Origin: Candidatus Abyssobacteria bacterium SURF_5
GTDB taxonomy: Bacteria > Abyssobacteria > SURF-5
Assembly (NCBI GenBank): GCA_003598085.1
Contig: QZKU01000020.1
Location: forward strand, 1-10,239
Length of the DNA: 10,239 nt
Direction of reading: 5' to 3'
Part shown: in pieces, positions 2,186 to 10,239 of the stretch
Position numbering within the stretch: the stretch's first letter is position 1
Layout of the letters: each line of letters starts with the position of its first letter
Made by a program: the position numbers and the translations under genes
The notes under the pieces: model-generated
What the model was told of the DNA's origin: nothing
Databases searched by the model: none
What the model saw: the letters and a program-made list of their open reading frames with translations, nothing else

Positions 2186-4528
2186 ATGATACCAAGTCGT
2201 TCCTCAGAAAGAATGAAGCTGCCGCTCTTGCTGCTTGCGCTGGGATTTACTTCCATGGTGTCGCAGGTTCTGCTGATGCGCGAGCTGGTCGTTGTTTTTT
2301 ACGGCAACGAGTTGTCGCTCGGGATCATGCTTGGCAGTTGGCTGTTCTGGGTCGGCACGGGAAGTTATTCGGGCGGCATCATCCTTCCGCGCGCGCGCTC
2401 AATGAGTCGCTTCAGCGCCGTTGCGCTCCTTCAGGTGCTGCTGGGTCTTCTGAGTTTTGCCACGTTTCTGGCGCTCCGGATGCTGCCGCTGATACTCCGG
2501 CAGGAAACAGCGGGGGAAGTCATCGGCTACGTTCCCATCGCGATCACAAGCTTCTTGTTGCTGGCCCCGCTGTGCCTGCTTCTTGGATTCCTGTTCACGC
2601 TGTTTTGCCATTTGCACGACGGGGAGGAGCCGGTTACATCGATCGGCAGAGTCTATTTTTTTGAAGGACTGGGCGCCGCCGCCGGTGGAATCATATTCGC
2701 TCTCGTTCTCGTGCGCTTTCTTGATCCGGTGACAATCGTTTTCCTGCTGTTCATCATGAATTTGGCCGCCGCCGCTTTTACACTTGCGCTTATTTCGAGA
2801 CCTGTTCTTTCGGCGACGCTTCTCTGTATCCTTTTCCTCGCGGTATCCGGGAGCGCGTTTTTCGGAATCATTGGAACCGTGAAAGAGCGAAGCCTTGCAT
2901 GGCTGTGGCGGGGGCTGCATGTCGTCGATTCCGGTGACTCGATTTACGGCAATGTGACGTATATAGAGCGTGAGGGACAGAGAGCACTGTATGAAAACGG
3001 GCTGCTGATTGCCTCTCACCCAGACCAATTTTCGGCCGAAGAGGCTGTGCATTTTGCCCTTCTCGAACATGCGAAGCCGAAGCGGGTACTGTTGATCGGC
3101 GGGGGCGCGAGCGGCAGTGTAGATGAAATCCTCAAGCATTCGGTTGACCATGTCGACTATGTCGAGCTCGATCCGCTCATCATCGAGATGATTACACGAT
3201 ATTTTCCGCCGGATGCTCGAAGGGGTCTGGAAGACCCAAGAGTGACGATCCACAATATCGACGGCCGGCTCTTCATCAATCGAACGCGGGAAAGCTATGA
3301 CGTCATCATTATCAATCTGCCCGACCCATATACGGCCCAGTTGAACCGATTCTACACCGACTCATTCTTTCGGACGTGCGCGGCCAGATTGAAGCCGGGC
3401 GGGGTTCTCTCGTTTCGGCTCAGTTCGGCGGAAAATTATATTTCTCCCGAACTGCAGCAATTCATTGGGTGCATGTATCGGACCCTGCGCGAGGTATTTC
3501 CGGAAGTGAAGGTGATTCCCGGGGAAACCAATGTTTTCATTGCCGCAGCCGCTCCCAACACGTTGACCCTGGACGCGCACGCGCTTATCCGGCGCCTTTC
3601 GGAGCGGGCGATTCAGCAGCAGGTGCTCTTTGTAAGGGAATACTATCTGCCGCACCGGCTGTCGGAAGACCGCCTTCAGATGCTTGCAGCGGCGCTCTCT
3701 GTCGAGGTCTCCAGGCGGAATACCGATCTGGCGCCGGTATGTTATTTCTATGATGCTGTTTTGTGGAGCAAACAGTTCAAGGATTTCTCGAGCAGCGTCC
3801 TGGTGTGGTTCTCGAAAATTCCGCCCGCTATTCTGCTGGCGGCAGTAGCCGTCTTTTTTGCCGGCGCAGCGTTTGTCCAGATGAGAGCGCCGCGGTTCTG
3901 GGGTCCGAAATCGATTCTTGTGGCCGTGGGCACAACGGGATTTGCGGAGATCACTGTCGAGGTGGTTACGCTTCTGGGTTTCCAGGCGATCCATGGATAT
4001 GTTTATCACAAGATCGCAATTATCATCACCTTCTTCATGGTGGGATTGGCTTTGGGCGCGGCGTCGGCTATTCGCTATGTGAGGGCAAAGCGTTCCCATG
4101 CTCTGCCGTTTCTCGTAGTGCAAGGAACGGTATGCCTTTATCCGCTTCTCTTATTGGGGGCGCTTGTTATCATGACGGGCGGCGGTGCAAGTTCGTTTTT
4201 TGGCCGGGCGCAGTCGGTACAGGCCGCCGTTGTCTTTCCGGCGCTTGCTTTTGCGGCCGGGTTGATTGGCGGACTGCAGTTCCCGCTTGCGAACGCGCTG
4301 TGGCTCGCTGAAGTTCCGGGCACGGCCCGTGCGGCGGGATTCACTTATGGGGTAGACCTTTTTGGCTCGTGCGCCGGCGCGTTTCTGGCTGCGGGTCTAC
4401 TCATCCCTGTCTTCGGGATTCCGTTCGCCTGCGGCGCGGCATCGCTCTTAAACGCCGGCAGCTTTATCCTCGTATTCCTGAAAATTCGTCAAGGCTTTAA
4501 AGGTGTGTCACCGCTCAGTCTCCGGTAA
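2186..4528 (+). CDS. Membrane-embedded spermidine-synthase-like protein (fused MFS/spermidine synthase type)
   Basis: This 780-residue protein has three parts. Residues about 11-232 hold seven hydrophobic segments. Residues about 240-500 form a methyltransferase-fold domain of the spermidine synthase type, with nucleotide-binding GGGASGSV near 304-311, YVELDP near 323-328, NIDGR near 356-360 and INLPDPYTAQLNRFYT near 374-389. Seven further hydrophobic segments follow to the end, including GGLQFPLANALW. Classical spermidine synthases have D-x-x-D-P at the active site; here it reads N-L-P-D-P, so the catalytic Asp is Asn while the second Asp is kept. Ordinary aminopropyl transfer is therefore doubtful. 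The role of such fused proteins is not settled. ATG 2186 is used, but ATG 2213 (MKLPLL), directly before the first membrane segment, is equally possible. The 3' end overlaps the convergent radical SAM gene by 40 bp. Confidence 0.85.
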   Translation: MIPSRSSERMKLPLLLLALGFTSMVSQVLLMRELVVVFYGNELSLGIMLGSWLFWVGTGSYSGGIILPRARSMSRFSAVALLQVLLGLLSFATFLALRMLPLILRQETAGEVIGYVPIAITSFLLLAPLCLLLGFLFTLFCHLHDGEEPVTSIGRVYFFEGLGAAAGGIIFALVLVRFLDPVTIVFLLFIMNLAAAAFTLALISRPVLSATLLCILFLAVSGSAFFGIIGTVKERSLAWLWRGLHVVDSGDSIYGNVTYIEREGQRALYENGLLIASHPDQFSAEEAVHFALLEHAKPKRVLLIGGGASGSVDEILKHSVDHVDYVELDPLIIEMITRYFPPDARRGLEDPRVTIHNIDGRLFINRTRESYDVIIINLPDPYTAQLNRFYTDSFFRTCAARLKPGGVLSFRLSSAENYISPELQQFIGCMYRTLREVFPEVKVIPGETNVFIAAAAPNTLTLDAHALIRRLSERAIQQQVLFVREYYLPHRLSEDRLQMLAAALSVEVSRRNTDLAPVCYFYDAVLWSKQFKDFSSSVLVWFSKIPPAILLAAVAVFFAGAAFVQMRAPRFWGPKSILVAVGTTGFAEITVEVVTLLGFQAIHGYVYHKIAIIITFFMVGLALGAASAIRYVRAKRSHALPFLVVQGTVCLYPLLLLGALVIMTGGGASSFFGRAQSVQAAVVFPALAFAAGLIGGLQFPLANALWLAEVPGTARAAGFTYGVDLFGSCAGAFLAAGLLIPVFGIPFACGAASLLNAGSFILVFLKIRQGFKGVSPLSLR

Positions 4529-5766
4529 TCCTGCCCCGTCTTGTGGGCGACACACTGGTAGCAGGAGAAATCCGCGTCGTCTCCGCCCGGGAAACAGTCG
4601 TACATGCCGGACTGCTGCATGATGAGGTGCCTTTTCCAACCCAATTCGAGGTAAAATTCGGTCGAAGGCAATTCCATCCCCTCGTATCTTGTGCCCCTCG
4701 CCTTGGTCAAAAACCCGAAAATAGGAACGATGGCGTGATCGACCAGAAACTCGTATGCCCGCATGTGGGATTCCACTGCATCTGATTCGTGGGGCGATCC
4801 GTTCGGGGAAAGCAACTCGACGCCTGCAACGAAATTGGTGGCAACTTGTCCGGGACCGAAAATATCGACGGCTGCTTTCAAGCGCCTGATCCATTCTTTC
4901 TTGCCTACCGCTTTTGTCTTGCCGGGAACAACTTCCTCCCAGAGACGGTCTTCCCACACCTCCAGGTTCGGCTGGACCCGATCGGCGCCGGCTTCCTTCA
5001 GCAGGAGCCAGCCTTTTTCGTCGAATGCCTGGCAGACGGCGGTGATTCTGGTTTTCGGTCCAAGAGCTTTTCTTAATGCGGCTATCGTCTTCGCATAGGA
5101 TTTGGCTTCGAGTTCGGTCTTGATGAAAGAGCCGCCGGATACGACGGCGTGGCGAATCTTGATTTCTTTTGCGGCGAGCGTGCAGGCTTCGATGGTCTTT
5201 TTCTGGTTCTGCGGAATGAAATCGGAGATATCCGAGAGCGTGAGCCCTGCCATCATATTTCCGAGGATACAGAAAGCGCACTGGTCGCGGTTCTTCGAGT
5301 ACTCGCAGAAGAGTGAATGCACGATTGCGATGCAATTCTCGGTCCTTTGTCCGAGAAAATCGGAAACAGCCGATCCGTCGGATAAAGTGGTTTGAAAAGT
5401 GGGGCGCGCGGGCGAGGAGACTTCGGTTATCGGATTCTTGCCGCGGAACAAGACATATCTATGGTTCCCCTGCTTTCGGACGAAATAGGGGCTCTTCTTG
5501 TCGAGTTCGAGGTTTACGCGAGTACCATCGGGCAGGGTCAACTGGTTAGGGGCCGCCAGTACTTCATTCGCCGCTTCGTCCGCAGGGATATCCTCCCGGC
5601 TGAGAAAAGCGTTTGTCGGAATCGCCCATAATGCCACCTCAGCAAGGTCCGCTGTAAAACGCAGACCCTCCCTCAGCACGTCCGCTTTCAGGATGATACT
5701 GTCGGGCGTCTCCGCAAACCGATCTTTCAGTCTCTGCAAATGTAAATCAAACTGCATCTTGCCCAT
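4489..5766 (-). CDS. Radical SAM protein with atypical CX8CX2C motif and C-terminal Cys triad
   Basis: This 425-residue protein begins with about 145 residues of unassigned N-terminal domain. A cysteine triad follows (C154, C163, C166) spaced CX8CX2C instead of the canonical CX3CX2C, ending CAFCILG as radical SAM clusters do. Downstream, VVSGGSFI fits the GGE-like SAM-binding strand, and NLEVWEDRLWEEVVPGK resembles the biotin synthase/MqnC-like barrel. Near the C-terminus a second triad (C391, C402, C405; CX10CX2C) could bind an auxiliary Fe-S cluster. The longer frame begins at TTG 5853, but that TTG is the -35 box. GGAGG at 5775-5771 sits just before tandem ATG codons at 5769 and 5766; I prefer 5766 for spacing, with 5757 also possible. 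I do not recognise the exact subfamily or substrate. It is divergent from the cDPG operon, so a functional link is only a possibility. Confidence 0.82.
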   Translation of the reverse strand: MGKMQFDLHLQRLKDRFAETPDSIILKADVLREGLRFTADLAEVALWAIPTNAFLSREDIPADEAANEVLAAPNQLTLPDGTRVNLELDKKSPYFVRKQGNHRYVLFRGKNPITEVSSPARPTFQTTLSDGSAVSDFLGQRTENCIAIVHSLFCEYSKNRDQCAFCILGNMMAGLTLSDISDFIPQNQKKTIEACTLAAKEIKIRHAVVSGGSFIKTELEAKSYAKTIAALRKALGPKTRITAVCQAFDEKGWLLLKEAGADRVQPNLEVWEDRLWEEVVPGKTKAVGKKEWIRRLKAAVDIFGPGQVATNFVAGVELLSPNGSPHESDAVESHMRAYEFLVDHAIVPIFGFLTKARGTRYEGMELPSTEFYLELGWKRHLIMQQSGMYDCFPGGDDADFSCYQCVAHKTGQDYRRLSGDTPLKP

Positions 5767-5770
5767 CATG

Positions 5771-5775
5771 CCTCC
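5771..5775 (-). promoter_or_regulatory. Ribosome binding site deciding the radical SAM start
   Basis: GGAGG on the minus strand (within AGCGGAGGC) lies 1 base before ATG 5769 and 4 bases before ATG 5766. It argues for translation from these tandem ATG codons and against the upstream TTG at 5853, which has no ribosome binding site and lies upstream of the predicted transcript. Confidence 0.7.
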
Positions 5776-5824
5776 GCTCCATGGATTTGCCACTCGCCTT
5801 TGCTCCGGTCCAGGCAACGATCTC

Positions 5825-5853
5825 ACTTTACTTTTTTCCGAAGGCTGTGTCAA
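5825..5853 (-). promoter_or_regulatory. Sigma70 promoter of the radical SAM gene
   Basis: On the minus strand, TTGACA occupies 5853-5848 and TAAAGT occupies 5830-5825, with a 17-bp spacer. The -35 box is perfect and the -10 box matches 4 of 6. The transcript should start near 5818, giving a leader of about 50 nt to the tandem ATG codons. Confidence 0.7.
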
Positions 5854-5925: not shown

Positions 5926-5954
5926 TTGACAGCATTTTTGGCCTGTGCTAGACT
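5926..5954 (+). promoter_or_regulatory. Sigma70 promoter with extended -10 driving the cDPG operon
   Basis: TTGACA at 5926-5931 and TAGACT at 5949-5954 are separated by 17 bp. TG at 5946-5947 followed by one base gives an extended -10 element. Transcription would begin near 5961, leaving a leader of about 30 nt. AAGGAG at 5975-5980 serves the GTG start at 5991 with a 10-base, T-rich spacer. This promoter is good evidence that the operon is expressed as bacterial DNA despite its archaeal-type enzymes. Confidence 0.8.
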
Positions 5955-5990
5955 TAAAGAGGAATCCTTGGTAAAAGGAGCATTTTTTTT

Positions 5991-7172
5991 GTGAGCGCGC
6001 AGAAAAACATGTACCCGATGGTGGTCAGCAAGAGCCTGAGTTTCCCGTTTTCGAAGGGGATTCTGTCGCAGGCGCTGATCGCGATCGGAATGAAGCCGAA
6101 CGAGGCTTACAAGGTGGCCGAGAAGATTGAGGCACGGCTGCTCAAGCGCAAGTCGCCTCGCATCGAGAAGGATCAGCTTAAGCGCGTGGTTTACAATGAA
6201 CTGCGACGCGAACACGGGCCTGATCTCGCGAAAAAGTATCTGGAATGGAAGAAGATCACGTCTTCGCTCGTGGTGAAAGAAGGAAGTTCCGGAGTTCCGT
6301 TCTCGAAAGGGATTTTGTCGCAATCGTTGCAGGCGGCGGGGATAGAACCGAATATCTCGCATTCGCTGGCCGTCACCATTGAGAAAACGCTGCTTCGCCG
6401 GGAGAGTCTGGAGGTGACGCGAACGGAGTTGCGGGACCTCACCGTCGGGACTCTGCGCAGGAAGTACGGGTCGGCCTATGCCAATCGATATCTGCTGTGG
6501 CGGCGGCTGAAGAAGCCCGCGCGTCCCCTCATCATCCTGATCGGCGGCACAGCCGGAACCGGCAAGTCCACAATCGGGGTGGAACTCGCGCACCGGCTCG
6601 GGATCACCCGGGTCATCTCGACCGATTCGGTTCGCGAGGTCATGCGGATCATGTTTTCCACCGAGTTAATGCCCACGATTCACAAGTCTTCCTTCGATGC
6701 CTGGCGGGCTTATGACTGGCCAAGGGGCATCAAGGATGACGTCGTTATTGCCGCCTTCATGGAACAGGCCTTGCGCGTGTCGGCTGGTGTATACGCTCTG
6801 ATGGATCGCGCCTTGAACGAAAAAATCAGCACAATTCTCGACGGCGTTCATCTTGTGCCGGGCTTCATAAAGCGCGATTACGGCGGCGATGCGCTCGTGT
6901 GCAAACTCGTCATTACGACAGAGGACGAGGACGTTCATCGCGAACGTTTTCTTATTCGCAGCGAGCAGACTTCCACTCGCAGCGCTGACAAGTACCTGAA
7001 GAACTTTGAGGCGATCAGAAGAATTCAGGATTTCATTGTGTTACAGGCGCACATGCACGGCGTGCCCGTTTTCGACAACGAAAGCTTCGACCAGACCGTG
7101 ACCACTATCGTCAAATACCTTACGGACTTGATCAAGAACCACGATAGAACGTACCTTCATATGGCGAAATGA
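5991..7172 (+). CDS. 2-phosphoglycerate kinase with two tandem ATP-cone domains
   Basis: This 393-residue enzyme is predicted to phosphorylate 2-phosphoglycerate with ATP to 2,3-diphosphoglycerate, the first committed step to cyclic 2,3-diphosphoglycerate. Residues about 17-89 and 102-173 are two copies of an ATP-cone-like module; each starts with PFSKGILSQ and ends with L-x-W-[KR]-[KR]. The kinase domain follows: Walker A GTAGTGKST (186-194), then ISTDSVREVMR, ILDGVHLVPGF and the C-terminal RSEQTSTRSADKYL stretch, all typical of archaeal 2-phosphoglycerate kinase. As I recall, archaeal enzymes are about 300 residues with one ATP-cone, so the second copy explains the extra length. The GTG start is supported by AAGGAG 10 bases upstream. 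The stop overlaps the next start by 4 bases (ATGA, 7169-7172), implying translational coupling. Identification is strong, helped by the next gene. Confidence 0.9.
   Translation: MSAQKNMYPMVVSKSLSFPFSKGILSQALIAIGMKPNEAYKVAEKIEARLLKRKSPRIEKDQLKRVVYNELRREHGPDLAKKYLEWKKITSSLVVKEGSSGVPFSKGILSQSLQAAGIEPNISHSLAVTIEKTLLRRESLEVTRTELRDLTVGTLRRKYGSAYANRYLLWRRLKKPARPLIILIGGTAGTGKSTIGVELAHRLGITRVISTDSVREVMRIMFSTELMPTIHKSSFDAWRAYDWPRGIKDDVVIAAFMEQALRVSAGVYALMDRALNEKISTILDGVHLVPGFIKRDYGGDALVCKLVITTEDEDVHRERFLIRSEQTSTRSADKYLKNFEAIRRIQDFIVLQAHMHGVPVFDNESFDQTVTTIVKYLTDLIKNHDRTYLHMAK
6039..6509 (+). repeat. Tandem ATP-cone duplication inside the kinase gene
   Basis: The units are at 6039-6257 and 6294-6509. 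They share FPFSKGILSQAL versus VPFSKGILSQSL at their starts and LEWKKI versus LLWRRL at their ends. The DNA is still similar around 6046-6070 and 6298-6321 but synonymous sites have diverged, so the duplication is not recent. Confidence 0.75.
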
Positions 7173-8542
7173 AAGCGTTATTCCTCATCGACGGAGAGCA
7201 CTATATCCCTGTTAATCGAGACGGCATTTCTTCGGTGGCGCGCAGCCGCGGGTATGAGGCTACGGCGGCCGCATTTATCGGAGGCATGGAGAAGATCGGG
7301 ACGCCGGAGGATTTGAAAGCGCTGGGGCTGCCCGTCACCATCGAGAAGGACCCGTTTACAGCCATAACGGCGGCAATCGAACGGCACCGGCCGGACATCG
7401 TTGTCGACTTGAGCGACGAGCCGGTCGTCAGCAGCCGCAGGCGCTTCGAGTTCGCCAATTTGATCATTTCACACGACATCCCGTATGAGGGCGCCGATTT
7501 TCGATTCGACCCCCCGCGGTATGAAACCGTGTGCAAGAAGCCCTCGCTTTCTGTGGGCGGCACAGGCAAGCGCGTGGGCAAGACGGCGCTGGCCGCATTC
7601 GTCGCCCGCGCCTTGAACGGGCAAGAGAATGTTCGAGCGTCGTTTACTCCGTGCATCGTCACCATGGGGCGCGGCGGCCCTCCTCAGCCGGAGGTGATCG
7701 AAGGCGGGAAAATCCGGCTGACGCCGGAGCATCTGCTGGCGGAAAGCAGGAGAGGCAAGCATGCGGCAAGCGACCACTATGAGGACGCCCTGATGACGCG
7801 GCTGACCACCGTCGGATGCCGCAGATGCGGCGGCGGTTTTTCGGGGGTGGTCTTTGTTTCGGTCGTTCCGGAAGGCGCGAAGGTGGCGAATGAACTGCCG
7901 TGCGATTTCATTGTGTTCGAGGGCAGCGGTGCGTCCATGCCCCCCGTTGCGACGGATGCGTGGATCATGGCGGTCGGCGCGAACCAGGCGATCGAATACA
8001 TCACCGGCTATATGGGGCCGTATCGCATTCGTAAGAGCGACCTGTGCGTCCTGACCATGTGCGAGGAGCCGTTGGCCGATAAACAGAAGATCGCCGAAAT
8101 GGAAGCCGCCATCTACCGGGTGAATCCTTCGATCCGGCTCGTGAAAACCATCTTCCGGCCGAAGCCGCTCGAGGAAATCGGGGGAGAGAGGGTTGTCCTT
8201 ACGACGACCGCGCCGCCGGCTGCCGGAGAGAAGATCCGCGAGAGTCTGGAGCGGGAATACCGGTGCGATGTAGTGGCCATGAGTCATCATCTTTCACATC
8301 GACCGAAGCTGCGGGAGGATCTTGCCGCGGTTCTCGCGACAGAGAAGCCTACTGTCCTGTTGACGGAAGTAAAAGCAGCCGCGATCGACGTCGTCACTGC
8401 GATCGGCCTTGAGGCCGGCCTGCGCGTCGTATACGCGGATAATATACCGATTCCGTTGGAAGGCGAACCCGACCTGTCTGAATCGGTCCTTCATGTGGCC
8501 CATTCGGCTGTTCAACGATTTACCGCGAAGGAAGCCAGATGA
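7169..8542 (+). CDS. cpgS: Cyclic 2,3-diphosphoglycerate synthetase
   Basis: This 457-residue protein, close to the 460 or so of the Methanothermus fervidus enzyme, is predicted to close 2,3-diphosphoglycerate into cyclic 2,3-diphosphoglycerate using ATP. Family signs include the N-terminal MKALFLIDGEHYIP, DLSDEPVVS, the glycine-rich nucleotide loop SVGGTGKRVGKTA (S128-A140), TMGRGGPPQPE, TVGCRRCGGGFSG and the conserved FEGSGASMPPV. The nucleotide loop is a deviant Walker A with an extra residue compared with GxxxxGKT. In methanogens the product is a potassium-linked thermoprotectant and phosphate store; here its role is inferred. The gene starts inside the stop of the kinase gene (ATGA, 7169) and ends overlapping the mutase start (ATGA, 8539). 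Its substrate-making kinase is immediately upstream, which strongly supports the assignment. Confidence 0.92.
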   Translation: MKALFLIDGEHYIPVNRDGISSVARSRGYEATAAAFIGGMEKIGTPEDLKALGLPVTIEKDPFTAITAAIERHRPDIVVDLSDEPVVSSRRRFEFANLIISHDIPYEGADFRFDPPRYETVCKKPSLSVGGTGKRVGKTALAAFVARALNGQENVRASFTPCIVTMGRGGPPQPEVIEGGKIRLTPEHLLAESRRGKHAASDHYEDALMTRLTTVGCRRCGGGFSGVVFVSVVPEGAKVANELPCDFIVFEGSGASMPPVATDAWIMAVGANQAIEYITGYMGPYRIRKSDLCVLTMCEEPLADKQKIAEMEAAIYRVNPSIRLVKTIFRPKPLEEIGGERVVLTTTAPPAAGEKIRESLEREYRCDVVAMSHHLSHRPKLREDLAAVLATEKPTVLLTEVKAAAIDVVTAIGLEAGLRVVYADNIPIPLEGEPDLSESVLHVAHSAVQRFTAKEAR

Positions 8543-9792
8543 AAACGACTCGCAAAGCGATCATGTTGATTATCGACGGTCTCGGCGACAGGCCAATCAA
8601 AGAACTGGGGAATCTCACGCCTCTCGAAGCCGCAGACACTCCTTGCTTTGATCGTTTGGCCAGGGAGGGGATCACCGGATTGATGGACCCTCTGTCGCCC
8701 GGCATTCGAGTTGGAACCGATGTAGGGCATCTGGCGCTGTTCGGGTACAACCCGCTCAAGGTGTATTGGGGACGCGGGCCGATCGAGGCTTCCGGCGTGG
8801 GAATCTCGCTCAAGCCCGGCGATGTCGCCTTCCGATGCAATTTCGCGACAGTGAATGATAATCTCATTGTCATCGACCGGCGGGCCGGACGCATCCGCCA
8901 TACAGAGGCATTGGCCGCCGCTCTGAATGGTATTCCTCTCGGAAACGGGGTGCGCGCCGTTTTTCGCCCGGCCACCGAGCACAGGGCGGTTCTGGTGTTG
9001 AGCGGCGAGCGACTCTCGGCCGAGGTGACCGATTCCGATCCGGGCCCGTCGAGTGAGGGGGAACCTCTCCGGGAGGTAAGGCCGAAACGGCCGGGCCAGC
9101 CGCTGGCGGAGAAGACGGCTCATTTGGTGAACGAATTCGTCCGGAAATCTCATGAAATCCTGCAGAGCCACGAAATCAATCGCGAGCGCGTGAGAAAGGG
9201 ATTGCTTCCGGCCAATATCGTTATCACGCGAGGGGCCGGCATGGCAGTAAAGATGCGCAGTATTGCCGAGCGGTTCGATATCAAAGGAAGCTGCATCACG
9301 GGGGAAAGCACGGTGGTCGGAATCGCGCAGATGGCGGGCTTCAAAGTTCTCACGAATGAGAAGCTCACGGCGAATATCGATACCGATCTGGAGGAAAAGG
9401 CGCGCCTCGCCGTCGAGGCTTTGAAGGAGACTGACCTTGTCGTGATTCACGTCAAGGCCGCCGATTTGATGGCTCACGATAACAAACCGAGGGAAAAACT
9501 GGCTTTCATCGAGCGTACCGATGGAATGCTTCAAACAATACTTAACGAAGTCGAACACCCCAACGAAACCTACGTGGCGATTACCGCAGATCATTCCACC
9601 CCCTGCTCGATCGGCGAACACAGCGCCGATCCTGTTCCCGTGTTGATCCACGGAGAAGGCGTTCTTGCGGATTCGGTTGAAGCATACGGCGAGCGGGCAT
9701 GCGCGCGCGGGGGGCTCTGCCGAATCAGGGCCAACGATTTTCTGCTTTCGCTGCTCGACCTGATGGGAGCCACGTATCGGTTCGGAAGCTGA
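8539..9792 (+). CDS. apgM: Archaeal-type 2,3-bisphosphoglycerate-independent phosphoglycerate mutase
   Basis: This 417-residue enzyme of the alkaline phosphatase superfamily interconverts 3- and 2-phosphoglycerate through a phospho-enzyme using two divalent metals. Metal and active-site positions are visible: D13 (LIIDGLGDRP), VGTDVGHLALFGY with T60 at the nucleophile position, GRGPIE (78-83), D309 and H313 (AADLMAHD), D351/H352 (TADHSTP) and H361 (EHSADPVPVLIHG). Archaeal ApgM usually has Ser in a GSD-type motif; here it is Thr, which other enzymes of the superfamily use. The length is normal for ApgM. AAGGAAG at 8528-8534 is the ribosome binding site and the start overlaps the cpgS stop. 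In this operon it would supply 2-phosphoglycerate to the kinase; it may also serve glycolysis. The family is certain; the physiological direction is inferred. Confidence 0.92.
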   Translation: MKTTRKAIMLIIDGLGDRPIKELGNLTPLEAADTPCFDRLAREGITGLMDPLSPGIRVGTDVGHLALFGYNPLKVYWGRGPIEASGVGISLKPGDVAFRCNFATVNDNLIVIDRRAGRIRHTEALAAALNGIPLGNGVRAVFRPATEHRAVLVLSGERLSAEVTDSDPGPSSEGEPLREVRPKRPGQPLAEKTAHLVNEFVRKSHEILQSHEINRERVRKGLLPANIVITRGAGMAVKMRSIAERFDIKGSCITGESTVVGIAQMAGFKVLTNEKLTANIDTDLEEKARLAVEALKETDLVVIHVKAADLMAHDNKPREKLAFIERTDGMLQTILNEVEHPNETYVAITADHSTPCSIGEHSADPVPVLIHGEGVLADSVEAYGERACARGGLCRIRANDFLLSLLDLMGATYRFGS

Positions 9793-9796
9793 CGGT

Positions 9797-10239
9797 ATGC
9801 TTCTGGCAAAAGACATAATGACGCGCGACGTCATCACGATCCATTATTCAGCCTCGATTCGAGATCTGTCCAAGCTTCTTTCCGAGAGAGGGATCACGGG
9901 CGTGCCGGTAACGGATGAGAATAACCGGCTGCTCGGCATGATTTCGATGCGGGATGTAATCCGGGAGGAGGTTCGCCGGCTCGGGGCATCTTTCGACTAT
10001 CAGGATATCCACGAACTATTTTCGGCTGCGCTCGCAACCGAAGAGAGTGAGGCTCCGGGGCCCCAGCTTTGGGTCGAGGAGATCATGTCGAGAAACCTGT
10101 ACACGGCAACTGAAACGACGCCGGTGTGCGAGATCTGCCGTTTGACTCATTTTCGACAGTTTGAAAAATTAAGCTATTTTGTATCAAGAACTTACAGAGA
10201 CAGAAAAAGCTCTAGGCACTACATTTTCTCTGGCTCTCT
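9797..10239 (+). CDS. CBS-domain protein, second CBS interrupted, open at window edge
   Basis: Translation from ATG 9797 gives 147 residues without a stop before the window ends. Residues 1-60 form a typical CBS domain: AKDIMTRDVITI, then ERGITGVPVTDENNRLLGMISMRDV. A linker follows, and a second CBS domain begins at residue 92 (WVEEIMSRNLYTATETTPVCEICRL). At about residue 115 the expected CBS sequence stops and is replaced by unrelated, basic residues from AT-rich DNA. CBS pairs bind adenine nucleotides or SAM and act as energy sensors. The ribosome binding site GGAAG (9784-9788) lies 8 bases before the start, and the gene begins 4 bases after apgM, so it belongs to the operon. Either the native gene is disrupted by an insertion, or the last ~99 bases are an assembly overlap into a repeat. 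Confidence 0.75.
   Translation, partial: MLLAKDIMTRDVITIHYSASIRDLSKLLSERGITGVPVTDENNRLLGMISMRDVIREEVRRLGASFDYQDIHELFSAALATEESEAPGPQLWVEEIMSRNLYTATETTPVCEICRLTHFRQFEKLSYFVSRTYRDRKSSRHYIFSGS
10141..10239. mobile_element. Possible insertion-sequence end or repeat at the contig edge
   Basis: From about 10141 the GC content falls from about 60% (previous 100 bases) to about 34%, exactly where the second CBS domain loses its family pattern. On the minus strand one frame is open from the window edge for 18 codons to a TGA complementary to about 10185-10187, followed by AT-rich sequence up to the junction. That layout fits the 3' end and terminal region of a transposase gene. No transposase motif, terminal repeat or target duplication can be verified, so this is tentative. 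Confidence 0.3.

Follow-up and report, generated by a model that had tools for sequence, protein, structure and literature searches.

Cyclic 2,3-diphosphoglycerate (cDPG) was described in a 2023 structural paper as exclusive to hyperthermophilic archaeal methanogens (PMC10690619). The gut methanogen M. smithii is also reported to contain it, and it has been discussed as a storage compound (PMC1224877); mesophilic methanogens have both 2-phosphoglycerate kinase (2PGK) and cDPG, for which another function or storage has been proposed (PMC2686161, PMC1224877). No report of bacterial cDPG genes was found among the open-access papers searched. To our knowledge, no enzyme from a bacterial operon of the 2PGK-CpgS-ApgM kind, in which CpgS is cDPG synthetase, has been assayed. 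The window (the whole stretch of DNA that was analysed, 10,239 bases) is the complete contig C20 of a 5.10 Mb genome (98.5% complete, 1.2% contaminated) and carries a predicted cDPG gene set, a known pathway that stands here in a bacterium and in a new gene context. Judged from its genes and their conservation, the locus is very probably a functional operon with which a mesophilic bacterium makes cDPG. Its features are:

5926..5954, plus strand: sigma-70-type promoter, with TTGACA (5926-5931), a 17-base spacer, TG (5946-5947, extended -10) and TAGACT (5949-5954)
5973..5980, plus strand: likely ribosome binding site AAAAGGAG, 10 bases ahead of the 2PGK GTG start, read from the sequence
5991..7172, plus strand: 2PGK, GTG start, 393 aa, a P-loop kinase domain (GGTAGTGKS) preceded by two N-terminal ATP-cones (about residues 11-170)
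7169..8542, plus strand: CpgS, 457 aa, with P-loop GTGKRVGKTA and ligand residues E41, K42, K134, R135, K138, T139, D202, E299, T347, E400 and K402
8539..9792, plus strand: ApgM-family protein (alkaline phosphatase superfamily), 417 aa, with Thr60 where the nucleophile is usually Ser
9797..10140, plus strand: CBS-domain gene, fourth operon member, cut off by the repeat; assigned by a domain match and the intact copies of relatives
10141..10239, plus strand: repeat at the contig terminus that breaks the CBS gene, recognised by its copies across the genome

The first three open reading frames are joined by ATGA overlaps at both junctions, and these frames and their family matches agree with the three ATGA-coupled genes described in an earlier, sequence-only reading. 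The CBS-domain gene, which that reading did not mention, belongs to the operon: it begins four bases past ApgM, and although the window copy is broken after about codon 115, the gene is intact (158-168 aa) in the same position in the nearest named relative, Candidatus Poribacteria bacterium NC_groundwater_1808 (JACRIR01; G001), in a second relative (G002) and in the Omnitrophota MAG M55B152 (L009). Its product is a probable adenylate sensor. The genome has at least ten copies of the 99-base repeat, and several clearly lie at the ends of contigs, so a mobile or repeated element probably lies within the CBS gene, or the assembly breaks there. The order 2PGK-CpgS-ApgM-CBS is common to all three phylum genomes examined (the window genome, G001 and G002, all of one family) and to the Omnitrophota MAG, so the genes do stay together in related genomes, as the earlier reading had proposed to check. 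The TTGACA / extended -10 promoter that it had described is likewise present. Random 141-bp stretches drawn from this genome reach its score in 1.3% of cases, and both relatives keep the element ahead of 2PGK (TTGACA-N17-TAGACT in G001 and TTGACA-N18-TACACT in G002), while the flanking upstream sequence diverges. The gene matches, together with a promoter that is kept although its flanks differ, make the observation real and beyond chance. Elsewhere in the window, positions 4489-5853 (minus strand, divergent from the operon) encode a variant radical SAM protein above the NF045502 cut-off, which in the relatives does not adjoin the operon, and positions 2186-4528 (plus strand) a 780 aa membrane protein whose spermidine-synthase-like domain scores above the MFS_SpdSyn cut-off.

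Searches of CpgS against Pfam and NCBIfam models gave no match. A phmmer search matched it to the M. fervidus cDPG synthetase (8oru/8ork; residues 2-451 versus 5-455, E 2e-131), and it is 47% identical, over the full length and both domains, to this crystallised enzyme from Methanothermus fervidus, an identity to a solved structure that settles the fold. The roles of twelve ligand-contacting residues were taken from PMC10690619; eleven of these ligand/Mg residues could be mapped (Mf E45, K46, K145, R146, K149, T150, D208, E305, T353, E404 and K406) and all eleven are identical, the twelfth (P335) having been left out because its number misses any proline in the chain. The window protein is thus a predicted cDPG synthetase, which would carry out the ATP-dependent cyclisation of 2,3-diphosphoglycerate (DPG). 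Conserved residues are not enough by themselves to define the pathway, because 2PGK homologues use other substrates and some Bacillota CpgS carry the same residues without a 2PGK. These Bacillota homologues (L022, L023, L024, L028 and L078), whose genomes lack 2PGK, have ABC transporter genes nearby that resemble the 2-aminoethylphosphonate type, and perhaps act on an imported phosphorylated substrate. Another homologue, L005:1501-2874 (L043), has Gly in place of the Mg ligand D208, a loss seen only there among the homologues aligned; it adjoins radical SAM and LolA-like genes, the matching record L043 belongs to a genome (G076) that lacks 2PGK, and the function of this homologue is likely altered. 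Coatesbacteria CpgS have similar radical SAM / LolA-like neighbours and keep D208.

The 2PGK protein scored 393 bits over its whole length against NF003259, above the curated equivalog cut-off of 343, with 323 bits in the best single stretch. Its ATP-cone is matched in two stretches, and two N-terminal matches are also found in G001 and G002. The 2PGKs of the window's bacterial CpgS clade align to the window protein from residue 7-20 and so share the extra ATP-cone, whereas for archaeal and actinobacterial 2PGKs with strong matches the alignment starts at about residue 82-103. Homologues with a different substrate also exist (mevalonate-3-phosphate 5-kinase, NCBIfam NF008996). In the proposed pathway, 2PGK would phosphorylate 2-phosphoglycerate to DPG, and CpgS would use a second ATP to close an intramolecular phosphoanhydride in DPG, with cDPG, ADP and phosphate as products. 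Synthesis would be coupled to the adenylate state through the pair of ATP-cones on 2PGK and through the co-transcribed CBS protein, and the ApgM-like protein could either supply 2-phosphoglycerate from 3-phosphoglycerate or turn over DPG or cDPG by way of its Thr nucleophile.

The ApgM-family assignment is above threshold (PRK04024, 513 bits, cut-off 489; TIGR00306, 446 bits, cut-off 320), and the protein matches PDB 2ZKT over its whole length (344 bits) with the metal-ligand motifs kept. It reads GTDVGHL where 2ZKT has GSDTAHL, so that the expected Ser nucleophile (GSD) is absent and Thr60 stands instead, at what we take, from family knowledge of cofactor-independent mutases, to be the nucleophile position. 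Thr is found here in all four operon-linked copies (window, G001, G002 and L009), which span two phyla, and Ser is kept in 2ZKT, 3IDD/3KD8, both paralogues in the same genome and the actinobacterial members seen. Phosphopentomutase likewise uses Thr; with this enzyme included, a Thr nucleophile is known in the superfamily, so that a feed mutase and a hydrolase are both possible for the operon protein. Thr is also the nucleophile of the superfamily's nucleotide pyrophosphatases/phosphodiesterases and of one phosphatase class, and replacing Ser by Thr in E. coli alkaline phosphatase lowered kcat 4000-fold (PMC11677397, PMC3145672). A second ApgM above the TIGR00306 cut-off lies on C42 (closest to the PhpG model yet under its cut-off), a PRK04200 member adjoins an aspartokinase gene, and neither GpmI nor GpmA was found above cut-off in the genome; viral contigs scanned for ApgM gave no match. 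The suggestion that the operon carries its own feed enzyme therefore holds for the family, while the mutase role is uncertain in view of Thr60 and the other TIGR00306-level ApgM; the operon protein may be a putative specialised mutase or a cDPG/DPG hydrolase.

We know of no gene assigned to a cDPG hydrolase. A speculative and rather unlikely extension is that the Thr-nucleophile ApgM is a cDPG (or DPG) hydrolase and not a mutase, the operon then giving mesophilic bacteria a cDPG storage cycle that is closed and under adenylate control, with a calcineurin-like phosphoesterase upstream of CpgS filling the same place in Actinomycetota. The gene for such a metallophosphoesterase immediately precedes CpgS, in the same orientation, at L010:6099-7004 and at 15 further loci (L011-L014, L018, L027, L030, L032, L059, L061, L142, L143, L152, L154 and L155), all from Actinomycetota except one labelled just 'unidentified bacterium'; its product is a candidate cDPG hydrolase.

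A scan of named genomes returned at least 401 CpgS relatives; the 80 retained include Actinomycetota, Bacillota, Coatesbacteria, Omnitrophota, MAGs labelled Cloacimonadota or Gemmatimonadota, and Methanobacteriales. In an even sample of Actinomycetota the family was present in 162 of 296 genomes, and the rarity in bacteria implied by the sequence-only reading does not stand. Actinomycetota genomes with CpgS also had 2PGK (40/40, against 1/20 without CpgS; Fisher p 1e-14, with hand-picked positives, the first listed genomes without CpgS as negatives, and a test that ignores shared ancestry). By their coordinates, 27 of these 40 genomes have the two genes side by side on a single strand, which gives separate support for one pathway. 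In a tree of 73 CpgS sequences the window protein falls with those of G001 and G002 (100/100), joined next by Gemmatimonadota- and Cloacimonadota-labelled MAGs (98/86) and then by Coatesbacteria (96/87), while Methanobacteriales and Methanopyri make up a clade of their own (100/100). Because branches are long and Archaea (Thermococci, ammonia oxidisers) sparsely sampled, this tree does not settle how the deepest groups are ordered or which way the gene was transferred. The comparison with archaeal homologs that had been proposed thus places the window protein in a bacterial clade, apart from the archaeal methanogens, and a recent archaeal transfer of CpgS into this genome was rejected on that ground.

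No 16S was found in the genome bin. The window is an entire 10.2-kb contig with a repeat at its end, as might be expected if faulty assembly or binning had put an archaeal or otherwise foreign contig into a bacterial bin. This is scarcely credible, as the operon is also in both other phylum genomes (CpgS 72% identity), the G001 copy lies on a 61.8-kb contig (C208) with bacterial recA and succinate dehydrogenase (sdh) genes near it, recognised by eye from their translations, and the CpgS tree unites all three phylum sequences among bacteria (100/100). An archaeal source, already judged unlikely from the window, is excluded for practical purposes. The growth temperature estimated from IVYWREL composition is 39 C (about 95,000 residues, from predicted ORFs only), and the method yields 35 for Methanobrevibacter and 70 for Methanopyri. 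This proteome composition indicates a mesophilic host, and the reading as a thermophile was rejected on the estimate of about 39 C.

Within a bacterial setting the end product could still differ. DPG itself might be the main working product, as a phosphate store or phosphoglycerate mutase cofactor, with CpgS running mostly in reverse and drawing ATP from cDPG; the M. fervidus synthetase was reported to be reversible and energy storage was argued (PMC1224877). We regard this as very unlikely, given that CpgS has a full synthetase site and follows 2PGK in one transcript, and that no cofactor-dependent mutase (TIGR01258) lies above cut-off in the genome, which leaves no visible need for DPG as a cofactor; the cofactor role was rejected for this reason. 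It would be equally surprising if the CpgS and 2PGK homologues made a different metabolite, another phosphorylated hydroxy acid, despite their common ancestry. There are 2PGK relatives that phosphorylate mevalonate-3-phosphate (NCBIfam NF008996), some bacterial CpgS stand without 2PGK beside a 2-aminoethylphosphonate-type ABC transporter, and one homologue lacks the Mg ligand D208, but the window 2PGK and CpgS match the characterised families best and co-occur, and a phosphoglycerate-mutase homologue in the operon points to phosphoglycerates.

With cDPG as the preferred product, its role would most likely be that of a phosphate, carbon or energy reserve or an anionic osmolyte, over that of a heat protectant. 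The thermoprotectant role raised by the sequence-only reading fits poorly with the mesophile-like proteome, a composition for which heat protection is not an obvious role. Should the bacterial operons prove functional, a metabolite rich in phosphate and energy would be common among uncultured bacteria and Actinomycetota, many of which probably live at moderate temperature. Heat protection would then no longer serve as the general account of its role, and cDPG could be produced with mesophilic enzymes. The operon also supplies candidates for the cDPG degradation step.

Compared with the cDPG pathway of Methanothermus fervidus and Methanothermobacter (8ORK/8ORU), the window has both enzymes, with the 47% CpgS identity and the ligand residues in common, but differs in its bacterial promoter and host, mesophile-like genome, ApgM-Thr and CBS genes and extra 2PGK ATP-cone; 2PGK and CpgS are not neighbours in the archaeal loci examined, whereas in the window they share one operon. 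The Actinomycetota pairs, including that of Candidatus Aquicultor, resemble the window in having adjacent, same-strand genes for both steps (27/40), yet there CpgS comes first, the calcineurin-like phosphoesterase is upstream in 16 loci, the ApgM-CBS cassette is lacking and the 2PGK matches begin only at the second ATP-cone. The operon-linked ApgM copies are like the archaeal-type cofactor-independent mutase 2ZKT (ApgM, PRK04024) over the whole length and in the metal-binding motifs, but carry Thr in place of Ser.
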